A stretch of DNA of 64,000 nt from Propionicimonas paludicola (GTDB taxonomy: Bacteria > Actinomycetota > Actinomycetes > Propionibacteriales > Propionibacteriaceae): the NCBI RefSeq assembly GCF_002563675.1, contig NZ_PDJC01000001.1:558001-622000 (forward strand), given 5' to 3'. How positions within the stretch are numbered: position 1 is the first letter of the stretch; every line of letters begins with the position of its first letter. The notes below the pieces were generated by a model. That model was not told where the DNA came from. It saw only the letters and a list, made by a program, of their open reading frames with translations, and searched no databases. The position numbers and the translations under genes are program-made. This document shows, piece after piece, positions 1,021-23,866 of this stretch.

Positions 1021-3429
1021 ATGGCTAGTCTTCGCAGAAGATCAACACGCTTGAGCCTGGTGGCGGGTATCACCGCGCTGGCTCTGGCCGGAGGAGTGGT
1101 CACTGCAGTGCCGGCCCAGGCCGCCGGCTCCATCGACCTTTCGACAGTCGACCTGACCTCACTCGCCTCGTCCAGCGGCGGGGCTTTCAGCGTGTCCGGA
1201 CCGACCGCCACCGATGATCTGACGATCAGCGGTGACGTGACCTTGACCGGTACCGCACCCATCGGCCGGACGATCACCATCTCCGGCGGCACTTCGAGCG
1301 CCCCCCGACAGATCACCCTGCAGGCGGTGACCGCTCACGCCGGCGCCGACAGCGCCGCGATCCAGCTTGCCGCAGGCGCATTCGCGAAGTTCACCCTGGT
1401 GGGCACCAGCGGCCTGGCTGGCTCCGACACTCGTCCCGGGCTGGGCATTCCGGTGGGTGCGGGGGCCGAGCTGGCCGCTGCCGGCCTGACCGGGCGTATC
1501 GACGTGACCGGCACCGGCAATGCGGCGGCCATCGGGGGCGACGGCAACGCCGTGCTCACCGAGCCAGCTGTGAAGCCGATCACCATCACCGGTCTTGCCG
1601 GTGCGAGCTGTGGCACCCTCACCATCAGTGGCGGCACCATCAATGCTCTGATCGGCAGCGACTCCGGCACGGGCGCAGCCATCGGCGGCGGACGCTTCGG
1701 CTCGGGCTGCACCGTGAACATCAGCGGCGGTGTGGTCAACGCCACCGGCAAGGCTGGCGCCGGCATCGGCGGCGGGATCGGCAAGGATGCCGCCAACGGC
1801 TATCTGAAGGACTCCCCGGGCGGCGCCGGCGGCAACGTGACGATCTCCGGCGGCACGGTCACCGCGACCTCCGCGGGAAGCACCGTCACCGGCGAGTCCG
1901 AACTGCGCTACTCGGCTGCCATCGGCGGTGGCCGTGGTGGTGGCGGCGGCGCCGAGGACCAGGGCTCGAATGGTGCTCCCGGAACGCTCATCATCACCGG
2001 CGGCTCGGTCAAACTGTCGCCCCGCCTGGCCTCGGACCTCAAGCCGGATCCCAAGAACGGCCCCGCGATGTTGGCCCAGGTGAAGGTGAACAACGCCGCC
2101 TCGGTCTCGCAGGTGGTGGTGACCCCGGAGGGCGGCGTCGCGACTCCGTTCGCGGTGTCGTCGAACCACCCCAGTGACGCGGCGCTGTACCTGTACCTGC
2201 CCTATCCGAAGACCTACTCGATCGCCGTGACGGCCGGTGGCAACACCACCACCTATCGGGCAGTCACGCAGAGCACGGGCGCGGACGCGACCGCCTACGT
2301 ACCCGCTCCGGACCCGGCCAAGCTCTCCCTTTCTGGTGTCACCTTCGAGCCGGCCACCTGGGGTTACTCCGCTCAGGCTGCGCAGGCAGTGACCATTCAG
2401 AACACCGGCGGCACGGCCGCCACGATCACCGGAGCTTCGGTGAGCCCGAGCGGTGCCTTCACCGTGGACAAGCCGGCAACGGTCAGCGTGCCGGCCGGTG
2501 GCAGCAACTCCTCGATCACGGTGACCCCGGTGACCGGACTCGCTGCCGGCGTCCATGAGGCAACGCTGACCCTCACCTCTGCCGCGGGAACCCTCACCAC
2601 TCCGCTCTCCTTCACGGTCAACGGAGTTCCGGAGTTGGCCTTGACGGCACCGTCGTTCCCGAACGTCACCGTGGGTGCCTACACCCCGGTCGGCCAGGAT
2701 CTGACGATCACCAACACCGGCTCGGCCCCGGCAACGCTGTCCAGCGTGACCTCCTCGAGCTCGGCGTTCGCGGTGGCCACCAGCTCGGCAGCCATTCAGC
2801 CCGGTGGTTCGGTCAAGGTGAAGGTGACTCCGGCGGCCGGACTGGCCGTGGGCAACTACCAGTCCACCATCACCGCGAACTTCAACGGTCGGACCGCCAC
2901 GGCGAAGGTCTCGCTGACCGTCGCCCCGGTGCCGGTGGTCGACATCAGGGCCGGCCAGACCACCCTCACCCTGGTGAAGGGGTCGAGCGTCGCGATTTCG
3001 GCCTATGGCTACTTGGCCAACGGCCAGTCGGTGGCGGTGACCTGGTCGGTATCCAACGCCGCAGTGGCCACCGTGTCGAGCTCGGGTTCGATCAAGGGGA
3101 TCAACGCCGGAAAGGCCACGGTCACCGCGACCTCCGGCGGCAAGAGCACCTCGATCAGCATCACGGTGCTGGCGAAGAAGTCCAAGACCAAGGTCAAGTC
3201 GGTTTCCGGAAGCGTCCCCAAGACGATGAAGGTCGGCGCCCGCGCCTACGTGACCGGCAAGTACTCACCGACCTCGGCCCCCAGCGCCAAGGTGACCTAC
3301 TCCTCGTCCAGCAAGTCGGTGGTGACTGTGGACGCGGCGGGTGCGCTGACGGCCAAGAAGAAGGGCAAGGCGAGCATCACCATCAAGGCCGGTGGCAAGT
3401 CCAAGAAGTACACCGTCACCGTCAAATAG
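1021..3429 (+). CDS. Secreted ISGG-rich / Ig-like multidomain surface protein
   Basis: Predicted 802 aa. ATG 1021 was chosen because AAGGAGG lies at 1002-1008; GTG 1018 is an equally close alternative. Residues 1-35 form a signal peptide (MASLRRRSTRLS, hydrophobic core, then AQA-AG). Residues about 40-350 carry repeated TISGG turns (ITISGGT, LTISGGT, VNISGGV, VTISGGT) and glycine-rich IGGG runs, which suggest a parallel beta-helix or carbohydrate-binding fold. Two roughly 100-residue Ig-like repeats follow, of the kind with LTITNTGSAPATL (abnormal spindle/choice-of-anchor style). Two BIg2-like domains close the protein (ATVSSSGSIKGINAGKATVTA and the last 80 residues), ending in lysine-rich KKYTVTVK. 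No catalytic motif is recognised. It is probably a surface-exposed adhesin or glycan-binding protein, flanked by other secreted proteins. Confidence 0.85.
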   Translation: MASLRRRSTRLSLVAGITALALAGGVVTAVPAQAAGSIDLSTVDLTSLASSSGGAFSVSGPTATDDLTISGDVTLTGTAPIGRTITISGGTSSAPRQITLQAVTAHAGADSAAIQLAAGAFAKFTLVGTSGLAGSDTRPGLGIPVGAGAELAAAGLTGRIDVTGTGNAAAIGGDGNAVLTEPAVKPITITGLAGASCGTLTISGGTINALIGSDSGTGAAIGGGRFGSGCTVNISGGVVNATGKAGAGIGGGIGKDAANGYLKDSPGGAGGNVTISGGTVTATSAGSTVTGESELRYSAAIGGGRGGGGGAEDQGSNGAPGTLIITGGSVKLSPRLASDLKPDPKNGPAMLAQVKVNNAASVSQVVVTPEGGVATPFAVSSNHPSDAALYLYLPYPKTYSIAVTAGGNTTTYRAVTQSTGADATAYVPAPDPAKLSLSGVTFEPATWGYSAQAAQAVTIQNTGGTAATITGASVSPSGAFTVDKPATVSVPAGGSNSSITVTPVTGLAAGVHEATLTLTSAAGTLTTPLSFTVNGVPELALTAPSFPNVTVGAYTPVGQDLTITNTGSAPATLSSVTSSSSAFAVATSSAAIQPGGSVKVKVTPAAGLAVGNYQSTITANFNGRTATAKVSLTVAPVPVVDIRAGQTTLTLVKGSSVAISAYGYLANGQSVAVTWSVSNAAVATVSSSGSIKGINAGKATVTATSGGKSTSISITVLAKKSKTKVKSVSGSVPKTMKVGARAYVTGKYSPTSAPSAKVTYSSSSKSVVTVDAAGALTAKKKGKASITIKAGGKSKKYTVTVK

Positions 3430-6500: not shown

Positions 6501-7883
6501 GTTGCCGCAGTCGACAAGAACGGTGTGGTCTCGGCCAAGGGTGAGGGTGTCGCCACCATCACCGGCAAGGTCACCGCGCTGGGCTCCAGCAAGACCGACG
6601 ACTTCGCCGTCGTGGTGAACGGTCCGGCCTCGTCGCCGGCTCCGATCATCAACATGGCCGATCAGACGGTTGAGCTGCATAACGCTGCCTCGATTCCGAT
6701 GAACGCGAAGCTGGCCCTGGTGCCGGAGAGCGCTCAGGCAACCTCGATCACCTACCTGATCGCGGGCATGGATGAGAACAGCGCCGGTGCGACCATCACC
6801 GCTGAGGGTGTGCTCACTGCAACCAAGGAGGGCAAGGTCCGAGTCACCGCTGTCGGTGACGTGGACGGCGTCAAGGTCTCCGGCGCCGCAGAGGTCACCA
6901 TCGTCAAGGATGGCGCTCTGGCTGCCGACAACAGCGCTCTGAAGGCTGCCATCGCGGCTGCCGAGGCGCTGGTGAAGTCCTCTACCCCGGAATCAGCCGA
7001 GGCCAGTGGACTGCCGTCGGCCATTGCGGACGCCAAGGCTGCTCTTGACTCGACCGATCAGAAGGAGCTGGACAAGGCTCTGGGCCTCCTGGGTGACGCG
7101 GTTGCCGCGGCTCAGGACAAGCTCGTCCTGATCGATACCCCGTCTGCGCGTGCCGCAGCCGTGGCCGGGCTCAAGGGCGTCATCACCAAGGCGGAGGCCA
7201 TCGATCCGACCACCTTCAACGCCGAGTCCTTCAAGGCCCTTCAGGCCGCGCTGGACGACGCCAAGAAGGTGGCGGCCGATCCGGCTTCGACCGTCGAGCA
7301 GATTCAGGCTGCAACCGCCAAGGTTCTGGACGCGATCTTCAGCGCCCCGTCCACCGGCGGACGCACTGCCCTGGATGCGGCCAACGCCAAGTTCACCGTT
7401 GTGGACAAGGCCTACACCGGCTCGCCGATCACCTCCGGGTTCAGCGTGACGATCGACGGCAAGCGGCTCTATGAGGGTGTCGATTTCGCCACCAGCACGG
7501 CCGGTGCCAACACTGAGATCGGCAAGGGCTCGATCACCATTGTGGGTAAGGGCGACTACTCCGGCACCAAGGTGCTCGAGTTCAACATCGTCCCGAAGAA
7601 GACCAGCGTGTCCAGCGCCAAGGCGGGCAAGGGCAGCGTGAAGGTCTCCTACAAGAAGGTCTCGGCCTCGCAGAGCGTGTCCAAGTACCAGGTCCAGTAC
7701 CGGGTGAAGGGCACCTCGACCTGGAAGACAGTGTCGGTCTCGGCTTCGAAGTCCAACGTGACCATCAAGAAGCTGAAGAAGGGCAAGGTCTACGAGGTGC
7801 AGGTGCGGTCCTACAAGACCGTCGCCGGTGTCAACTACTACTCCGCTTGGAGCGCCACCAAGGCCTCCGCGAAGGTGAAGTAG
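3576..7883 (+). CDS. Secreted glycoside hydrolase family 3 (beta-xylosidase/beta-glucosidase type) with Fn3, BIg2 and FIVAR modules
   Basis: Predicted 1435 aa. ATG 3576 gives a clean signal peptide (SGRALVIALVAAGL ... TAQA-ADTP) with a purine-rich site just upstream; the in-frame ATG at 3540 would add 12 residues before it. The GH3 N-terminal barrel covers about 45-350, with the nucleophile D276 in GFVTTDCSA. The C-domain is interrupted by a CBM6-like insert (about 480-620) and resumes with VVTGTNTAE and EEMDR near 668, where GH3 acid/base residues usually sit. Next come the GH3 Fn3-like domain (about 800-885), BIg2-like domains (about 940-1110), two FIVAR-type helical repeats (about 1115-1260) and a tail paralogous to the protein at 1-540. 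Family knowledge suggests hydrolysis of terminal xylose or glucose from plant oligosaccharides outside the cell; the exact substrate is unknown. Confidence 0.93.
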   Translation: MSLPKFTLRPKSGRALVIALVAAGLTFTGTPLVQTAQAADTPTWMNTSLSFEERAAALVSQMTVAEKINQLRDTAPAITRLGLPSYNYWSEALHGVMASGTTMFPSATGIASTWNRGLVSKLGTVISDEARVLNNTQNKGLTYWSPTLNIYRDPRWGRADESYSEDPYLVGQIGEQFIKGLQGNDPKYLKVISTPKHFMANNSESNRRSGDSEITQRELREYYTPAFAHALSPEVGAYSVMTAYNRVNGVPMSASKEYIETLAKRTWGFKGFVTTDCSAIKDEFQRHKWVPEGWDHNVTPQEATAWSLKAGSDIDCQGFSYRDYLQGAYNAGLVSDADLDSELTSLLTGRFKLGEFDPASQVPFKGADYSKAAKFATPENQQAALQTSEEAPILLKNDLVTSTTHRGLPLGSDVKNIAVVGYIGNAFNAGGYSGYSPVDSRKIIDGITQVAKDVNPAATVTYIGDGVTPAGSSGKPGVQNVTFKSAGTVVQTIKASDTQDGYPTNTQANPAPGQFIKWEGWMGINWGYNDYMRASSVWGGYIQVRTDLPSTVDSVCVTQSGNAATAPKGGVFDVFLDSMTGTKVASIPAEGAASTCGTVADSALAAAATGGVHDLYFVYNPGTLGDYGTAGTEGHPWAYNLTTDQEATIKAADAVIVVTGTNTAESAEEMDRTNIDMPRFQDVMTSKIAALNPRTISWIQSVGQMNIEAFRTNKSVPSIVWSNYNGQSQGITAGEILFGKVNPSGKLPFTWYTNAKQLGTIWDYRITPSKTDTSIKGRTYEYFNGDVSYNFGFGLSYSKFSYSDLNIDKSSYTGDDTITAQVDVTNSSTVPGKEVVELYVSSPNADGYDRPKRQLKGFTKVSLGSMETKTVTIKVPVKELWFWDADANKKVWDKGAWKLQVGPQANSGPTKAFNLTADPTPYLDVVAAVNDGTVLNTAAPDTVIHSNLSATRNDQSFLDLDSRSVKVEYSSSNPSVAAVDKNGVVSAKGEGVATITGKVTALGSSKTDDFAVVVNGPASSPAPIINMADQTVELHNAASIPMNAKLALVPESAQATSITYLIAGMDENSAGATITAEGVLTATKEGKVRVTAVGDVDGVKVSGAAEVTIVKDGALAADNSALKAAIAAAEALVKSSTPESAEASGLPSAIADAKAALDSTDQKELDKALGLLGDAVAAAQDKLVLIDTPSARAAAVAGLKGVITKAEAIDPTTFNAESFKALQAALDDAKKVAADPASTVEQIQAATAKVLDAIFSAPSTGGRTALDAANAKFTVVDKAYTGSPITSGFSVTIDGKRLYEGVDFATSTAGANTEIGKGSITIVGKGDYSGTKVLEFNIVPKKTSVSSAKAGKGSVKVSYKKVSASQSVSKYQVQYRVKGTSTWKTVSVSASKSNVTIKKLKKGKVYEVQVRSYKTVAGVNYYSAWSATKASAKVK

Positions 7884-7916
7884 TCGTAATAAGGTCAGAC
7901 TGACCTCACTGTGATC

Positions 7917-7945
7917 GTGGGGGGCGGACAGGTTCCGCCCCCCAC
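7917..7945 (+). terminator. Strong hairpin terminator after GH3 gene
   Basis: Perfect 12-bp stem GTGGGGGGCGGA / TCCGCCCCCCAC with loop CAGGT, followed by a short TTTCGCGTTT stretch. The entry sequence GATCGTGGGG matches the hairpin after the first gene, so the duplicated tails share 3' flanks as well. Confidence 0.8.
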
Positions 7946-8334
7946 TTTCGCGTTTCGCTCGGGCCGGTCCAGGACGCCCCGGCTCACGGCCAATTGGGTG
8001 GGGGATGATGACTGGATTAGCCCCGTTTTTAGCCCCGACTGGGGCACAGGTCATGAAGGTGAGTTATTGGCCTACTCACAGCCGGATCCTAGAGTTCTGG
8101 ACGTCTGAGAGTCTGGTCACCTCACCGGGATGTGGGCGGAGCGGGTGGCCATCGATGAGCGATGCGGGTTCCGGGGCACAGTGCAGTGCGTTTCGGCCTT
8201 CCCTGGGCTGGCTACCCCTTATCGGTGGGTGCAGAGGCGTACGTGCGGCCGTCCCGAGGATCTGAACTCCAGCAGCGCCGCGTACGCGACGCACACAGCC
8301 GGGTTGCGGGAAGACGAGGAAAGGGAGTCCGAAC
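7946..8334. promoter_or_regulatory. Upstream region of LuxR-type regulator, with likely promoter
   Basis: No gene in about 390 bases. A candidate sigma-A promoter has -35 TTGGCC at 8067-8072 and -10 TAGAGT at 8090-8095 (17-nt spacer), which would give an unusually long leader of about 230 nt. Just upstream are the direct repeat TAGCCCCG (twice, near 8018-8037), a GCCCC-GACT-GGGGC hairpin that includes the second copy, and GTGAG/CTCAC arms (8059-8063 / 8075-8079) that could be a protein-binding site. Function is inferred only. Confidence 0.4.
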
Positions 8335-10290
8335 ATGGAAGCGGAACAGGTCCTGATCGTCGCCTCGGAGCGTGCGGACGCGAGCATCGGGCAGAGTCTT
8401 TCCGACCAGTTGACCGGCACCGCATTGTCGGCCGTGACCGCGGCCTGGCGCAGTGTCACACCGGCCACCTTCCGGCTGATTCGATCGGCCATGGGGGATC
8501 AGCTCCCGCCGCTCGGCTGGCCGGAGTACCGGGCCTGGGCTCTGGGCAGCGGAATCGCTGTCCCGCGGGGCGGCAATGAGCTTGAAGTGGTGCCGACGGT
8601 TCGCGCCGGCCAGGAGCTGGACCCGACGTCCCGCCAGGCCTACCGCCTGCTTCTGAACTGCTGGGTTGCTCACCCCGAGCCGAGTTTTGCGGCCGATGCG
8701 GTGGCCTGGGCGATCGGACTTCGTGCGTGGGCGGAGCTCAGCGAGTTGTGGCTCGGCCAGCTACTGCCGGCCGGGAGCTGGCGAGACCCCGAGGTGATCA
8801 GGCTGTTGTCCGGGTTGCCGCCGGAAGCGCGACGGAAGGGTCCATTGCTGACGATCGCCTGGGCCAGAGCCCGCGCTCAGGCGCTGGGTGGCAGTGCGGG
8901 TGAGCGCCAGCGTCAGCGGGATCAGCTCGCCGACGCGACGCTCCTGCATGCGCGCTGGCGCGAGGCCGACGGGTTGGACGCCATGCTGCTCAGCGCGTCG
9001 CTCTGGATGAACTCGCAGCGCGAGGTGCCCGGCATTGATCCCACCAGTGCCTTGGAGTTGGCCTGGGATGGGCAGAAGGAGGCTGCGCTCTTCCTGGAGC
9101 GCCGCCGGGCGGAGGCGACCGGCTTCAGTGGCCGTGCCGAAGCGATCTTCCGGGCCTCATCGGCGCAGATCTCATTGGCCCGCGGCGACCTTGAGCGCGC
9201 TGTGATCGAGGCCGAGCGTTCGGCGATGCTCGATCCGGAGATCTCGGCGGCCATCGCCGACGGTGTCGCCGCCCTGGCCCGGGAACTGGCCGGTGGGCGG
9301 GACGTCGCGGCGCAGCCGGGACGGGACCGGGCCGACCTGCATCACGAGTTGCCCCGTGGCCTTTCCGCTGCGGACTCCCGCGCCGCCGTGTTGGCAGAGG
9401 CGCTGCGCGCGATTCGGACTCTCGATCAAGAGGCCGCCGAGCGGGCCATGGCGCAGCTGCGGACCATGCCTACCGGTGCCACCCTGTGGCCGGTGGTGCT
9501 GTTCGCTGAGTCGCTCCAGGCGGCTCTGTGGGGCGATCCGGAGTGGGCCCTGGCTGAACTCGACGACGCTCGAGCCCAGCACTCGATGGGATCGGTGGAG
9601 CAGCTCGAGCCGCTGGGTCGGAGTCTGCTGCAGCGGGCGCGGGTGACCCTGCTGGAGCGACTCGGAGCGACCGCCACCGCCCGTTCGGCGGCCCGAGAGC
9701 TCTCGCCGGAGTGGCGGGCACTGGCCGAGGCCCGCTGCCTGATCTGGGCCGGTGACCACGACGCGGCGCGGCGGGTGGCCGATGAAGGCATCTTCGATGC
9801 CGGCACCTGGCTGGGGGATCGGTTGGCGCTGCGGGCGATCCGGGTCGGTGCCCAACTGCTGGATCCGGCTGCCGGTGAGTCCATTCGAGCGGACGCCGTT
9901 CAGGAGGTGATCGCGATCTGCCTGAAGCGACACTCGCTGTTGCCGGTCGCGCTGCTGCCGGTGGAACTGCGCTCCCGGATGATCGCCACCTACCTCTCCC
10001 GGGCGCAGTCCGCGGTGATGTCGCCGGTCGAGTCGGTTCTGCTGGAGCGGCTCCGGGCAGTCTCTCCGCTGTCGTCCTCCGCAGCTCCTCCGGTGCGGCT
10101 GACTCGCCGCGAGAAGCTCCTGCTACCGCTGCTGGCCAGCGCGGACGCGGTTCCGGACATTGCGGCCAGCCTGCATGTGTCGCCCAACACCGTGCGCACC
10201 CAGGTGGTCAACCTGCGCAAGAAGTTCGGGGCGGCCAGCCGAACCGAGCTGGTCCGCAGCGCGCGCAACGCCGGCCTGCTGCAGATGTGA
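8335..10290 (+). CDS. LuxR-type transcriptional regulator without recognisable ATPase domain
   Basis: 651 aa; ATG 8335 is preceded by AAAGGGAG. Only the last roughly 65 residues are recognised: a LuxR/GerE helix-turn-helix (LTRREKLLLPLLASA, IAASLHVSPNTVRTQVVNLR), which binds DNA. The preceding 580 residues are alanine- and leucine-rich helices with TPR-like character and no Walker A motif, unlike full-length MalT/LAL regulators, which have an AAA ATPase at the N terminus. It stands alone between the secreted glycosidase genes and a permease, and ends at a strong shared terminator. Targets are unknown; the glycosidase genes next door or the GH1-symporter pair are reasonable candidates by position only. 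Confidence 0.82.
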   Translation: MEAEQVLIVASERADASIGQSLSDQLTGTALSAVTAAWRSVTPATFRLIRSAMGDQLPPLGWPEYRAWALGSGIAVPRGGNELEVVPTVRAGQELDPTSRQAYRLLLNCWVAHPEPSFAADAVAWAIGLRAWAELSELWLGQLLPAGSWRDPEVIRLLSGLPPEARRKGPLLTIAWARARAQALGGSAGERQRQRDQLADATLLHARWREADGLDAMLLSASLWMNSQREVPGIDPTSALELAWDGQKEAALFLERRRAEATGFSGRAEAIFRASSAQISLARGDLERAVIEAERSAMLDPEISAAIADGVAALARELAGGRDVAAQPGRDRADLHHELPRGLSAADSRAAVLAEALRAIRTLDQEAAERAMAQLRTMPTGATLWPVVLFAESLQAALWGDPEWALAELDDARAQHSMGSVEQLEPLGRSLLQRARVTLLERLGATATARSAARELSPEWRALAEARCLIWAGDHDAARRVADEGIFDAGTWLGDRLALRAIRVGAQLLDPAAGESIRADAVQEVIAICLKRHSLLPVALLPVELRSRMIATYLSRAQSAVMSPVESVLLERLRAVSPLSSSAAPPVRLTRREKLLLPLLASADAVPDIAASLHVSPNTVRTQVVNLRKKFGAASRTELVRSARNAGLLQM

Positions 10291-18806: not shown

Positions 18807-19901
18807 ATGCTGAAGCAGTTCGGACCCAGTACCTTCGTGGCGATCTTCGTCGGGATCGGGTTGGCCTTCCTGGCCTTCGTCCCCGTGGCCGTCTACCGCT
18901 ACCGCCGGCACGGACGGCTGCGCTTCTTCGACGTGGTCACCCTGGTGCTGGTCGCCTGTTATGCCGTGGCGCTGTGGAGCTACACGCTGATTCCGCTCCC
19001 GGAGTCAAAGCACTTCAGCTGCATGAGCGCCCAGCTGCACCCGTTCCAGTTCGTCGCCGACATCGCCGAGGACGGCCGGACGCCCTGGCGCAACCGCGCC
19101 CTCCTGCAGGCGGTGTTCAACGTCGTCCTGTTCGCCCCGCTGGGCTACTTCCTGCGGGTGCTGGCCAAGCGGGGCTGGATCGTGGCCACGGCCAGCGGTG
19201 CGGTCATCTCGCTGCTGATCGAGCTGACCCAGAAGACCGGAGTGTGGGGCTTCTATCGCTGCGCCTACCGGGTCTTCGACGTGGACGATCTGATGCTGAA
19301 CACCGTCGGAGCGCTGGTCGGATCGCTGGTCGCGATCCCGGTGGTGCTGGTTCTGCAGCGTCGCCGGCCACCGGCTGCGGTGACCGCGGTGACGCTGGGC
19401 CGCCGGGTGATCGGCATCGTGGTCGATCTGACCGTGATCGCGGTGATCGGGGCCGGGTTGACCGTCGCCTGGCGGATGTTCTGCTCGGGGATCCTGGGCT
19501 GGTCGCTGGATCAGCTTCCGGGCTGGGTGGACCTCGTTCTGGGCGTGGGAGTCCCGGCGGTCGTCGAAGGCTACTGGGTGATCGTCCGGGGGCGGACGAT
19601 CGGCGAGGCTGCGGTACAGCTGCATCCGGTCCCGGGCTCGCTGGCCGAGCCGGCGTCCCGGGTGCTCAAGTTCTGCTTCGGCGTGGGTGGCTACCTGGCC
19701 GTGACCAATGTGTCGATTCCGGTGCCGCTGCTCGGGTTCGGCTTCGTGGTGGCCAGTGTGGTGCTGCTCGGCCCGACTCGTAGCCATCGTGGACTCAGCC
19801 ATCTGGTCTCCGGAATGGAGCTTCGCCTGGAGGATCCCGACCCGGAGGCCGAGTCGGAGGTGCCGGCGCCGACGCCGACCCCGATGTCCCCGGAAGGCTG
19901 A
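18807..19901 (+). CDS. VanZ-like / RDD-family fusion membrane protein
   Basis: 364 aa. Residues 1-190 match the VanZ family (membrane helices with LIPLPE, NVVLFAPLGYFL, LIELTQ and FDVDDLMLNTVGALVG); residues about 195-345 match an RDD domain (LGRRVIGIVVDLTVIAVIGAG ... GRTIGEAAVQLHPV). The tail is proline- and acid-rich and cytosolic. VanZ proteins confer low-level teicoplanin tolerance in enterococci and are otherwise uncharacterised; RDD proteins are membrane proteins, some acting in ion or substrate transport. Fusion of the two in one chain suggests they work on the same membrane or envelope step. No experiment can be inferred from sequence. Confidence 0.85.
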   Translation: MLKQFGPSTFVAIFVGIGLAFLAFVPVAVYRYRRHGRLRFFDVVTLVLVACYAVALWSYTLIPLPESKHFSCMSAQLHPFQFVADIAEDGRTPWRNRALLQAVFNVVLFAPLGYFLRVLAKRGWIVATASGAVISLLIELTQKTGVWGFYRCAYRVFDVDDLMLNTVGALVGSLVAIPVVLVLQRRRPPAAVTAVTLGRRVIGIVVDLTVIAVIGAGLTVAWRMFCSGILGWSLDQLPGWVDLVLGVGVPAVVEGYWVIVRGRTIGEAAVQLHPVPGSLAEPASRVLKFCFGVGGYLAVTNVSIPVPLLGFGFVVASVVLLGPTRSHRGLSHLVSGMELRLEDPDPEAESEVPAPTPTPMSPEG

Positions 19902-19962: not shown

Positions 19963-20598
19963 GTGAACACCGAAGTCTCGAGCCGTCCTGATCGTCGCGC
20001 CGTGCGCGCCCGTGCCCTGGTGGGCGTCGGGGTACTGGGCCTGGCCCTGAGCGGATGTTCCTACTTCGGGGTTCAGGTGGCTGGCCCGCAGACGCCGGTG
20101 GCGACACCCACTGTCACCGAAACCAGCCCCACACCGACCCCCACCCCGACCACGGCGACGCCGACTCCTACCCCGACCACCCCGACGCCGAGCGCAGCCG
20201 GGGTGAAGGCCACCGGCAACCTGAACTTCTACTCCGAGGTCAGTTCGGCCATGGAGGGCACCTGCACCCGCAAGGACGGCCGACCGGTGATCACCGTCAC
20301 CGACGAGGCCAACGACTTCTTCACGAAGGTCACTCTGACCGCGGAACTCGCTCCGGCAAAGGATCGGTTGCTCTCCTTCGCCGTCGAGACGGGGGAGGAC
20401 TCCGAAGAGATCACCTGGCACCTGAGCTACAACTCGTCCAAGCCGGCCAAGGGCACCTCAGCCAAGCTGGTCGTGAACGGCTCGACCTATCGGATCTCGG
20501 GCAACACCACTGCCGTCGAGATCGACTCCGATGGAACCAAGACGACCGAGATCATTCCGTTCGGCGCCACTGTGAAGTGCGCCGATCAGGAGTGGTGA
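19963..20598 (+). CDS. Putative lipoprotein with Thr-Pro linker
   Basis: 211 aa from GTG 19963. Signal peptide and lipobox LALSGC give a lipidated Cys32, so it is anchored on the outer face of the membrane. Residues about 47-80 are a (TP)n-rich linker typical of wall-spanning tethers. The remaining 130 residues form a beta-rich domain with two cysteines (GTCTRKDG, VKCADQEW) probably paired, resembling the small lipoprotein antigen type of actinobacteria; exact family not recognised. It converges with the cell-wall hydrolase gene, whose stop is only 8 bp away. The start choice is tentative because no strong ribosome site is present. Confidence 0.78.
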   Translation: MNTEVSSRPDRRAVRARALVGVGVLGLALSGCSYFGVQVAGPQTPVATPTVTETSPTPTPTPTTATPTPTPTTPTPSAAGVKATGNLNFYSEVSSAMEGTCTRKDGRPVITVTDEANDFFTKVTLTAELAPAKDRLLSFAVETGEDSEEITWHLSYNSSKPAKGTSAKLVVNGSTYRISGNTTAVEIDSDGTKTTEIIPFGATVKCADQEW

Positions 20599-20605
20599 CC
20601 AGCCG

Positions 20606-21946
20606 TTACTTGATCTTGACGCTCACCGTCACGCTCACCGTCTGGTAGCCGGACTTCGAGCCGGTTACCTTGAAGGTCAGCGTCTTGCCGCGATCGGCGG
20701 TCGAGGTGATGTAGCTGGTCTTGGTGGCCCCGGTGATCGCGGTGCCGTTGCGGTACCAGCGGTACTTCAGCGTGACACCACCGGGCTTCCAGCTGCCGAC
20801 CTTGGCCTTCAGCAGGTGGTTCACCCCACGGATCCCGTCCACCTTCGGCTTCGGAGTGGCGCTCAGCCGCTCCAAGGTGATCTCTGTCGGGGCCGAGGAG
20901 ACCTTGGTGGTGGCGTAACCGGACTTGGTTCCGGTGACGACGACCGTGAGCGACTTTCCGCCGTCGCTGCCGGACACCTTGTAGCTGGCCTTGGTGGCGC
21001 CCTTGATCGCCGAGCTGCCCCGGTACCACTGGTAGCTCAGCGTGACGCCGCCTGGCTTCCACTCCCCGGCCGTCGCGGTGAGAGTGGAGCCGACCTTGGC
21101 CGTACCGCTGATGGTGGGAGCCGGAGCCGACTCGAAGGTGGCCTTGACCACGGAGGCCAGCGGGGCGGACTCGACGCGGACGGTCTTGTAGCCGTCCTTG
21201 GAACCGGTCACGGCAACCTTGATGGTCTTGCCGCTGTCCTCGGTGGCCAGCTTGTAGGTGCTCTTGGTGGCGCCCTTGATCGCGGTGTTGCCGCGGTACC
21301 ACTGGTAGCTCAGGGTGACCGGAGCCGGAGCCCAGGCGCCGGCGGTGGCGGTCAGTGTGCTACCGACCTTCGCCGTCCCGGTGATGCTCGGCTGAGGGGT
21401 CGTGGTCAGGTCGGCCACAGCGACCTTGGCAGTGCCGGCCGAGGTCTTGGTCACCGAGTTGTAGCCGGCCTTGTTCCCGGTCACGGCCACCTTGATCACC
21501 GCACCGATGTCGGAGAGCTGCAGCTGGTAGGTGGCTGCGGTTGCACCGCTGATCGGCTTGCCGTCGCGCAGCCACTGGTAGCCGAAGGTCACCGGAGCGG
21601 GGGCCCAGGTGCCGGGCACAGCGGTGAGGCTGGTGCCGGCCTTGGCGGTGCCAGTGATCGTGGGGGTGGGGGTAGTGCTCAGGTTGGCCTTGGCCACCGC
21701 CGGGCTGGAGGCCTTGCGCGTCACCGACGTCATGGCCGGCTTGGAGCCGGTTGCCGCGAAGGTGACCACGGTCCCGGCGTCCTCGGGCTGCAGGGTGTAG
21801 CTGGTACCGGTGGCTCCGCTGATCGCGGCCCCGTTGCGGTACCACTGGTAGCGCAGGGAGGCACCCGACAGCCAGGTCCCGGGGTCCGCCTGCAGGGTCT
21901 TGGTGACCTGCGGGGTGCCGGTCAGCAACGGCTGTGGGGCCGGCGT
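20606..21946 (-). repeat. Five tandem Ig-like coding repeats (about 270 bp each)
   Basis: Within the hydrolase gene the protein repeats ITGTAKVGSTLTA ... YQWYRG-x-AIKGATKSTY ... VTGSKxGY five times. Repeats 2-4 are the most alike and repeats 1 and 5 diverge most, suggesting expansion from the middle. Such arrays act as spacers or surface-adhesion modules. Confidence 0.8.
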
Positions 21947-23347
21947 GATCGACATGAAGAGCTTCTTCCAGGTGTTGGCATCCACATCGCCGCTGGCACT
22001 GAGCCCCTGGGCGGTGCGGAACGCCTTCACTGAGGTAGCGGTGTCGCCGGCCAGCTTCGTCCCGCTCGCGACCGGGTAGCCGACCAGGGTGAGCAGAGTC
22101 TTGGCCGCACTGACGCCGTCGCCGGACGCACCGGACTTCACGCTGCCGAACAGCGCATCGAAGGTCTTCGGGCCGGCCTCTCCATCAGCGCCGAGCTTCT
22201 TGCTCGACTGGAACTTCTTGACTGCGGCCACAGTGGCCGAGTCGAACTTGCCGGTCACGGACACGCTGACGCCGGCCTTCTTCAGCAGGTACTGCAGGGC
22301 CGTCACCTTCTCTCCGGTCTTGCCGGAGGTCAGGACCAGGTTGAACGGGACGACGTCGTAGTCACCGAGGTTGTACTCGGCCATCACCGCGCGCAGCTTC
22401 TTCGCGTAGTCGCCGGCGCCCTTCGGCTCCTCGATCGTGGCGAGCGCGTCGATGAAGGCGGACTTGTCGTCCATCACCGCACGGGCGGCCGCGTAATCGG
22501 GGGAGTTGACGACCTGATCGGCGTGCTCGGCGAAGGAGTAGGTGGGGGAGGAGTACTTGCTGTAGCGGATGGTCTTGCCGCCGCTGGTGATCGAAATGCA
22601 GCCGGACTGCTGGCTGTAGGAGTTGGCGGCGAGCACCACGCCTTCGGTGCCGGCCAGGATGAAGTTGGACGAGCGGCGAAGGCCCGCGTAGTAGCTCCGG
22701 GTCTTCCAGTAGGACAAGGTGGTCCGCACGACGCCGTAGGCGCGTCCGCGGGCTTCGATGATCCGCCAGTCGCCATTGGCGAGCTTGCCGGTCAGGATCG
22801 CCACGTGACCGATGCCGTTCGAGCGGGCCGGGTTGTTGCGCAGGAAGACCAGGTCGCCGACCTTGGGGCTGCCGCTGACCGGCTTGGTGGCGTTGTACTG
22901 CGCAGCGGCCAGGTCGGTGATCTTGTTGCCGGAGCGGGAGTACAGCCACTGGACGAGCTCGGAGCAGTCGAACTTGGACGGGTTCGGGTTGCTGGCCAGG
23001 GCTTCGGCCCCCAACACATAGGCCTTGCCCACCTGGGCGTCGGCCAGGGCTGCGAACTGGCTCGGAGTGAGCGACCGGGTGCAGCGGGTGTCCCAGAAGT
23101 TGTTGGCGGACTTGGCCAGGGTGGAGGTGCCCCAGTCGCTGTTCACGATGGCCTGGGCGATAGAGACCGAAGCCGGCACCCCGTACGCGCGCTGGCTCGA
23201 CTGAGCCGCGCTGACCACGCTAGCGATGAAGGACTTCTTGGCGGAGTCCGAAACAGATGCAGCATTGGCGGGGGTGCTGTTCGTGAACGCGACGAGGACA
23301 GCCAGGGACCAACCCAAGGCAACGGCAAGTACTCGTGACGGCTTCAC
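20606..23347 (-). CDS. Secreted cell-wall hydrolase: NlpC/P60 nested in a glucosaminidase-like domain, two peptidoglycan-binding domains, five Ig-like repeats
   Basis: 913 aa from GTG 23347, which starts directly on a signal peptide (KPSRVLAVALGWSLAVLVAF ... ANA-A). Residues 38-94 match the first half of a glucosaminidase domain (VSIAQAIVNSDWGTSTLAKSANNF), but the catalytic Glu of the usual LESGWG is Asn69. Residues about 107-225 are an NlpC/P60 peptidase (C128 in FDCSELV, H181 in IGHVAIL, third site E198). Residues 228-333 then supply the second half of the glucosaminidase fold (RYSKYSSPTYSFAEHADQVV ... YAKKLRAVMAEYNLGDYD). Two PG_binding_1 domains (336-400, 401-468) and five 85-90-residue Ig-like repeats end in VSVKIK. 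It likely cleaves murein stem peptides outside the cell; the glycan-binding half may only position it. Confidence 0.88.
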   Translation of the reverse strand: MKPSRVLAVALGWSLAVLVAFTNSTPANAASVSDSAKKSFIASVVSAAQSSQRAYGVPASVSIAQAIVNSDWGTSTLAKSANNFWDTRCTRSLTPSQFAALADAQVGKAYVLGAEALASNPNPSKFDCSELVQWLYSRSGNKITDLAAAQYNATKPVSGSPKVGDLVFLRNNPARSNGIGHVAILTGKLANGDWRIIEARGRAYGVVRTTLSYWKTRSYYAGLRRSSNFILAGTEGVVLAANSYSQQSGCISITSGGKTIRYSKYSSPTYSFAEHADQVVNSPDYAAARAVMDDKSAFIDALATIEEPKGAGDYAKKLRAVMAEYNLGDYDVVPFNLVLTSGKTGEKVTALQYLLKKAGVSVSVTGKFDSATVAAVKKFQSSKKLGADGEAGPKTFDALFGSVKSGASGDGVSAAKTLLTLVGYPVASGTKLAGDTATSVKAFRTAQGLSASGDVDANTWKKLFMSITPAPQPLLTGTPQVTKTLQADPGTWLSGASLRYQWYRNGAAISGATGTSYTLQPEDAGTVVTFAATGSKPAMTSVTRKASSPAVAKANLSTTPTPTITGTAKAGTSLTAVPGTWAPAPVTFGYQWLRDGKPISGATAATYQLQLSDIGAVIKVAVTGNKAGYNSVTKTSAGTAKVAVADLTTTPQPSITGTAKVGSTLTATAGAWAPAPVTLSYQWYRGNTAIKGATKSTYKLATEDSGKTIKVAVTGSKDGYKTVRVESAPLASVVKATFESAPAPTISGTAKVGSTLTATAGEWKPGGVTLSYQWYRGSSAIKGATKASYKVSGSDGGKSLTVVVTGTKSGYATTKVSSAPTEITLERLSATPKPKVDGIRGVNHLLKAKVGSWKPGGVTLKYRWYRNGTAITGATKTSYITSTADRGKTLTFKVTGSKSGYQTVSVTVSVKIK

Positions 23348-23668
23348 AAGGGCTTTCGTACCTATCGTGGCCGGGATCGGCAACCCCCACCCTGCGGTGT
23401 TACTTGAGAGTTTGAATTCTTGAGTAGCGGCTGACTAGGGGTTTTGATGATTTCCCCAGGAAGTCTCGGCTGAGGTGGCCGTTGAGGGTTGAGAGCCGGC
23501 TGTGAGGCTAGGGGCAGGCCGGATCTCGGGCGGATCGACCGCCCCGGAGTGCGCGGGTGGCGTACCGAAATCCCGCTTCGCGCCTGGCGTAGCCTTGGCG
23601 ATGGCCCACAATGGGTGAAACTGCAGCCGGAACCCATCAGGGGCGCTGGCGTGGAAGGAGCAAGCCTG
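23348..23668. other. Divergent intergenic region between wall hydrolase and tatA
   Basis: About 320 bases without a gene. A TAGCCT -10 candidate for tatA lies at 23590-23595. A GGGCGG-ATCGA-CCGCCC hairpin is at 23528-23544. CTTGAG is directly repeated near 23403-23422, close to the hydrolase start, and could be a regulator half-site pair. I looked for a c-di-AMP (ydaO-type) riboswitch, often found before such hydrolases in actinobacteria, and did not see its conserved core. Confidence 0.45.
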
Positions 23669-23866
23669 ATGCCGAGTCTTGGCGGTTGGGAATGGGTCGT
23701 CCTTGCTGTGGTTGCGCTGGTGCTGTTCGGTGGCACCAAGCTGTCGACCTTCGGCAAGAACGCGGGGAAGGCGATCCGCGAGTTCAAGGAAGAGTCGGGC
23801 GTGGGCGACAAGCAGCTCCCGAAGCCGGCCGACGAAACCAAGCCCGACGACTCCACGCCTGCCTGA
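23669..23866 (+). CDS. tatA: Sec-independent protein translocase subunit TatA/E
   Basis: 65 aa from ATG 23669 with AAGGAG at 23655-23660. Typical TatA: an N-terminal membrane helix (GGWEWVVLAVVALVLFGGTKL, with the FG hinge), an amphipathic helix (FGKNAGKAIREFKEESG) and a short charged tail. TatA oligomers form the pore that exports folded, twin-arginine proteins. It is encoded alone, without tatC or tatB; in actinobacteria tatA and tatC are usually near proteasome-accessory genes, so this may be a second or isolated copy. Confidence 0.93.
   Translation: MPSLGGWEWVVLAVVALVLFGGTKLSTFGKNAGKAIREFKEESGVGDKQLPKPADETKPDDSTPA

Follow-up and report, generated by a model that had tools for sequence, protein, structure and literature searches.

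The usual picture of a peptidoglycan hydrolase is a chain along which the domains are strung like beads. In RipA-type enzymes the NlpC/P60 domain lies at the chain end, not inside another domain, and we take its family to cut D-Glu/diaminopimelate bonds in stem peptides. According to excerpted text on RipA, alanine mutation of each of the catalytic Cys, His and Glu abolishes activity, and the Glu is called unusual there too (PMC6628586; see also PMC12067865). For the GH73 glucosaminidases (PF01832), excerpts of PMC7170848 report that mutating the catalytic Glu inactivates several enzymes; in Staphylococcus aureus AtlA this mutation abolishes activity, and mutations in the YATD region, which the authors link to substrate binding, lower it. 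In FlgJ, a putative second carboxylate is placed on a beta-hairpin (PMC4752226, in excerpt). Here we describe a gene in the window, the 64,000-nucleotide stretch of Propionicimonas paludicola DNA that was analysed, in which a GH73 fold is interrupted by an NlpC/P60 domain; judged from 31 aligned proteins, this nest is a real and conserved arrangement of two known domain families.

The nested hydrolase gene occupies 20606..23347 on the reverse strand, as do all of its features given below, and encodes 913 aa when read from the GTG at 23347; translation might also begin at an in-frame TTG at 23383. Given the GTG start, the coordinates and residue numbering of the initial annotation are correct. 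By reading of the sequence, residues 1–30 (23258..23347), ending TPANAA, resemble a signal peptide. The N-terminal half of the GH73/PF01832 fold, residues 33–89 (23081..23251) by profile and alignment, contains residue 69, an Asn (23141–23143), and ends with C89 (23081–23083). It is followed by the inserted cassette, residues 90–233 (22649..23080; limits chosen from the alignment), with C128 (22964–22966), H181 (22805–22807) and E198 (22754–22756), and then by the C-terminal GH73 half, about residues 234–330 (22358..22648; profile and alignment), in which C250 (22598–22600) closes the loop opened at C89. Pfam places PG_binding_1 downstream in two stretches, one domain at residues 344–399 (22151..22318) and a second, with approximate limits, at about 405–472 (21932..22135); residues 340–463 of this region match a peptidoglycan hydrolase model. 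Ig-like repeats, also assigned by Pfam, take up about residues 475–913 (20609..21925). The length of this tail appears to be variable among relatives: most of the complete open frames have 668–950 aa, and that of L082 has 1453 aa.

The initial annotation had claimed a glucosaminidase split by a complete NlpC/P60 domain, and this is confirmed. In the whole protein, Pfam finds Glucosaminidase PF01832 in two stretches (56 bits, cut-off 30.2) with PF00877 (NLPC_P60) between them at residues 107–217 (44 bits, cut-off 23; E 2.3e-11 for the family), and all 31 aligned proteins share the nest. Each half matches separately: residues 30–99 scanned alone match profile positions 2–41 (E 5.3e-11), and residues 243–342 match positions 60–123 with an E of 1.8e-4 and 22.6 bits, which is below the cut-off of 30.2. 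The C-terminal half is also matched separately in relatives, at profile positions 59–123 in G548 (E 3.5e-6) and 50–123 in G028 (4.9e-5), and in G007 a single PF01832 match (4–123) bridges the insert. A chance two-part match is implausible because the same split recurs in other genomes of the family, for example G548, G022, G003, G018, G028 and G025.

The two halves are joined at a conserved place. C89 and C250 flank the insert and are invariant in the 31 nested proteins (alignment A2, in which the start of L082 is missing and one residue of L093 is masked); they likely form a disulfide. Uninterrupted GH73 proteins of the family carry both Cys at 21 loci, with 9 or 10 residues separating the first from the [GN]C that holds the second, the loop C-x9/10-[GN]C having been part of the pattern by which these loci were searched for; it is also present in 18/18 uninterrupted GH73 proteins of an ES.WG-based set. 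The loop reads S-P-x-Q in 10 of the 21 loci, and SPYQxGC is still present after the insert in two nested proteins (L070 and L092). These remnants therefore place the insertion point directly after the first Cys of the loop.

An AlphaFold2 model of the nested region, made from 30 sequences, has a mean pLDDT of 86.8 and a pTM of 0.61. In a Foldseek search with this model, NlpC/P60 structures rank at the top and GH73 catalytic domains lower: Auto (3fi7; 309 columns, TM by target 0.63, E 4.6e-4), AtlA (7qfu; 308 columns, 0.64, 1.8e-3) and FlgJ (5dn5; 291 columns, 0.60, 8.6e-3). Column counts include gaps and, for the GH73 alignments, are close to the query length, from which we read these alignments as probably spanning the insert. 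With an rmsd of 9.7–12.7 and TM by target of 0.60–0.64, the matches of the predicted model are moderate, and the two halves would resemble one GH73 domain, though not closely. Two unrelated domains on either side of the peptidase, the outcome against which the initial annotation had set its claim, were not seen when the predicted model was compared with GH73 structures, 3fi7 and 7qfu covering about the whole query.

The nest has a narrow distribution. Of 198 family genomes searched, 25 carry it full length or nearly (E up to 1e-20), and these belong to two of the 29 genera: the window's own (Propionicimonas-like), with 19, and Micropruina, with six. The query for this search was alignment A1, with 22 of 24 nested proteins (L004 and L011 left out). 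When 60 relatives were searched with the 310-aa nested region of the window, full-length matches were found only in the window's genus, at 53–100% identity. A scan of contigs with two insert motifs, which nests with a different insert would escape, yielded 41 loci, of which 30 are nested; the other 11, from Bacillus/Gottfriedia, have just the NlpC/P60 part. Wider draws, with 394 sampled genomes for the class and 396 for the phylum (E up to 1e-15 in each case), yielded no full-length match apart from that of the window itself; the remaining matches (5 and 1, respectively) covered the NlpC/P60 part, positions 46–173 of the model. A described PF01832/NlpC nest was not found in open-licence PMC text, as judged by titles and the first part of abstracts. 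Nineteen genomes of the window's genus bear the nest, and in these each listed PF01832 match sits in a nested gene. Micropruina-like genomes (G547, G548, G550, G551 and G552) have a frame with two tandem uninterrupted GH73 matches, and no such frame is listed in those 19.

Within the cassette, D127, C128, H181 and E198 are invariant in 31/31 nested proteins; the C128 and H181 recognized earlier are thus present throughout. The third residue, E198, had been thought unusual, but it is not new, Cys-His-Glu being the RipA triad published in PMC6628586 (in excerpt), and we rejected E198 as a new catalytic residue on these grounds. It aligns with the His of VHA in 8er5 but is offset by one residue from the His of IHA in 7cfl. 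The insert has a mean pairwise identity of 0.72, compared with 0.59 for the N-terminal and 0.48 for the C-terminal flank (465 pairs). In eight close pairs, dN/dS is 0.07–0.47 for the flanks and 0.06–0.32 for the insert, the insert being lower in 6/8; the flanks are under purifying selection in all eight. The peptidase therein looks intact as far as its residues tell.

The glycosidase active site has fared differently from its uninterrupted relatives. Residue 69 does lie opposite the catalytic Glu, as the initial annotation had proposed: Glu, together with the hairpin T-x-E and GYAT[DS], is present in 21/21 matched uninterrupted GH73 loci of the family. The Asn is correct for the window protein but is not a fixed replacement, the 31 nested proteins having A in 16, N in 11, E in two (L088 and L089 only), and D and G in one each; because the position varies in this way, we rejected Asn69 as a new catalytic residue. 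The uninterrupted loci were found with a pattern free of residue 69 and containing the Cys loop, which recovered 21 of 23 loci tried (19 distinct, L022/L131 and L026/L127 being identical places); an earlier pattern, which picked up 18/23 loci, required ES.WG, and its 18/18 for this motif is by selection. Pattern searches found ES.WG in 2/31 nested proteins, and YAT[DS] and the hairpin Glu motif in 0/31, which leaves all three absent in 29/31 and two of the three in the other two. Other positions of the fold are kept (N83 and G73 in 31/31, W72 in 27/31), and residue 71 is Asp in 22/31, reading SDWG in the window. Taken at face value, the GH73 part seems to have lost its catalytic machinery.

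On a tree rooted on 18 uninterrupted GH73 proteins, a branch supported at 100/100 sets the nested proteins apart, and they share one origin on the trees made. The Glu-keeping L088 and L089 branch first among the nested rows, with weak support (88/60). The simplest reading would be that insertion came first and Glu loss later, and that the YATD and hairpin Glu motifs were probably already gone in the last common ancestor of the rows seen.

The nearest relatives of the insert that we found are phage NlpC proteins. It is 63–67% identical to NlpC/P60 domains on four viral contigs (L133/L134, L135 and L043), compared with 40% over 126 residues for the best-scoring match to bacterial NlpC/P60 that is not of the nested family; among such bacterial matches, identity over some 70 residues reaches 45%. 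On L133 and L135 the NlpC/P60 gene comes after genes for the tape measure and the tail, and the PHROG families matched by the L133 protein are those of minor tail and tail proteins. The L133 protein (7695–9068, forward strand) continues after NlpC/P60 with an endonuclease/exonuclease/phosphatase domain (PF03372, 26.8 bits, cut-off 24.5), and the L043 protein (1197–2357, forward strand) has the same order with a PF03372 score of 20.7 bits, below the cut-off of 24.5. A 430-aa frame (G015:C263:19794-20495) is 40% identical to the phosphatase-like half of the phage protein. Among known mobile elements, 101 phage and 389 plasmid records gave matches, and in none of them did a single place cover more than 80% of the query.

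Insert and flanks tell different histories. On the insert tree, L087, L090 and L091 group with the phage and L088/L089 inserts (100/99), whereas on the flank tree they fall inside a 12-row clade (99/97). Forcing this clade on the insert tree was rejected (p-AU 0.0001), and forcing the five rows L087–L091 together was rejected on the flank tree (p-AU 0.0008) and on the PG-binding tree (p-AU 0.004); the 12-row clade was not rejected on the PG-binding tree (30 rows, L072 being too short to include; p-AU 0.35). The groups for these AU tests were named after the trees were seen, and the flank tree carries a long-branch warning for L082, L093 and L071, and for L088/L089 meeting L093. The conflict between the trees, together with the AU tests, therefore suggests that the insert was swapped independently of its flanks at least once. 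Phages may have been the source of the cassette; a grouping in which all 31 host inserts are held apart from the three phage inserts was not rejected (p-AU 0.33), and we do not take the phage-to-host direction as settled because this grouping is left standing.

Convergent with the nested gene lies an LpqH-like lipoprotein gene (19963..20598, forward strand; GTG start and lipobox LSGC by reading), the two stop codons being 7 nt apart, tail-to-tail. A VanZ-domain gene (18807–19901, forward strand) and, by reading, a TatA-like gene (23648–23866, forward strand) flank the pair. The lipoprotein matches PF05481 (Myco_19_kDa; 30 bits, cut-off 23), and the nine PDB structures that best match the fold of its model (pLDDT 96.4) are LpqH entries or an orthologue. 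With neighbours taken from a tblastn list, it adjoins the nested gene on the opposite strand in 22 of 30 named nested loci, that is, in 22 of the 27 that can be judged (L072, L080 and L082 lie at contig ends). Each of the five loci without such a neighbour (L081, L084, L087, L090 and L091) is an extra copy, and the same assembly has another copy that is paired (L075; L076; L079). Near three Micropruina nests (L067, L071 and L093), the lipoprotein was the only one of the window genes tested that was found beside the nest. One genome (L034 and G021) has four nested genes; two of these lie on the same contig at a distance of about 12 kb, have phage-like inserts and lack an adjoining lipoprotein gene.

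A single-sequence search found the lipoprotein in 23 of 177 family genomes, all 23 nest-bearing. With the phage protein as query, nested genes were matched in 24 of the 177, namely those 23 and G552, in which both nested frames run off contig ends (L072 and L080); in G551 the lipoprotein is on another contig, the nested frame stopping 153 bases from the end of its own (L082). From neighbourhood and co-occurrence we infer that the lipoprotein is a candidate partner or regulator of the nested hydrolase. A special bond between them is weakened by the narrow phylogenetic range that both share, and because PF05481 also occurs without the nest (33/177 genomes and 8/29 genera overall).

We believe, with a probability of about 0.7, that the protein is a secreted, wall-bound DL-endopeptidase (autolysin) built on a dead GH73 scaffold. 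The NlpC/P60 cassette, with its Cys-His-Glu triad, would be the working part of the enzyme and would hang from the C89–C250 loop of a GH73 fold that has presumably given up glycan hydrolysis and now acts as scaffold and spacer, while the two PG_binding_1 domains and the Ig-like repeats would hold the protein in the wall. Against this explanation, the C-terminal half of the window protein scores below the PF01832 cut-off when scanned alone (22.6 bits) and the GH73 matches of the model are moderate. Purifying selection on the flanks could also mean more than a scaffold, and some glycan contact may remain in L088 and L089, which keep the Glu.

These last points lead to the alternative suggested in the initial annotation, a clamp in which glycan strands would still be bound by the groove of the dead GH73 domain, and the stem peptides beside them offered to the peptidase that its loop carries. 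The fold looks kept in the predicted model, the flanks are constrained in 8/8 close pairs, and N83, G73 and W72 are conserved, all as a clamp would have it; nevertheless we think it unlikely, because the YA(S/T)D substrate-binding and hairpin Glu motifs are absent in 31/31 and not the Glu alone, the corresponding region of AtlA being tied to substrate binding in excerpts of PMC7170848, and wall binding is already supplied by the two PG_binding_1 domains. A broader scheme that joins the neighbouring gene to the phage relatives is more speculative still, and in our opinion improbable: a two-gene wall module, in which the dead lysozyme-like fold would be a socket whose Cys-closed loop holds a peptidase cassette occasionally replaced by the tail peptidase of phages attacking the same hosts, and in which the former groove would be read by the tail-to-tail LpqH-like lipoprotein, anchoring or restraining the enzyme. 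We give very little credence to a protein in which neither domain is catalytic and which only binds the wall, as described for RipD; the fold matches do include RipD (4jxb, titled a non-catalytic NlpC/P60 protein), but the four cassette residues are invariant and the insert is the more conserved part of the region (0.72 versus 0.59 and 0.48). Finally, a bifunctional enzyme whose GH73 part still cleaves glycan through other residues might draw on the Glu of L088 and L089 or on the Asp at position 71 (22/31), but is scarcely credible when all three motifs are missing in 29/31 and two of three in the other two, and when Glu mutation inactivates several GH73 enzymes (excerpts of PMC7170848).

The nested hydrolase can be set against four kinds of described protein. 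It is like the GH73/PF01832 glucosaminidases (FlgJ, Auto, AtlA and NCBIfam GsmA) in the profile match of both halves and, with moderate scores, in the fold of its predicted model, and shares the two-Cys loop with GH73 relatives of the family, but differs from them in lacking the catalytic Glu, the hairpin Glu and YA(S/T)D and in having a 144-residue domain in the loop; the GsmA model scores 70.6 bits against a cut-off of 240. The insert has the same Cys-His-Glu residues and fold as RipA and the NlpC/P60 (C40) DL-endopeptidases. The best PDB sequence matches, 4hpe and 4fdy, are tandem glycosidase–C40 autolysins, about 30% identical and matched over their C-terminal NlpC/P60 part only; their domains are presumably in tandem order, which is absent in the window protein, where the PF00877 match lies between two PF01832 parts. 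The phage NlpC/P60 domains are close to the insert in sequence, but are not nested. The candidate partner gene has the profile, fold and, by reading, lipobox of LpqH, the mycobacterial 19 kDa lipoprotein, and differs in adjoining a nested hydrolase gene. The LpqH family has long been known mainly as an antigen, and the tight pairing seen here is a testable lead on what this lipoprotein family may do. Both domain families and the Cys-His-Glu triad are known; what appears to be new is the nested arrangement, in which the peptidase looks active and the GH73 fold around it looks dead. One catalytic domain thus sits inside another, apparently inactive one; the two relatives that retain the Glu let the order of events be studied, and the conflict between the trees indicates that the outer fold can persist through a change of the domain nested in it.
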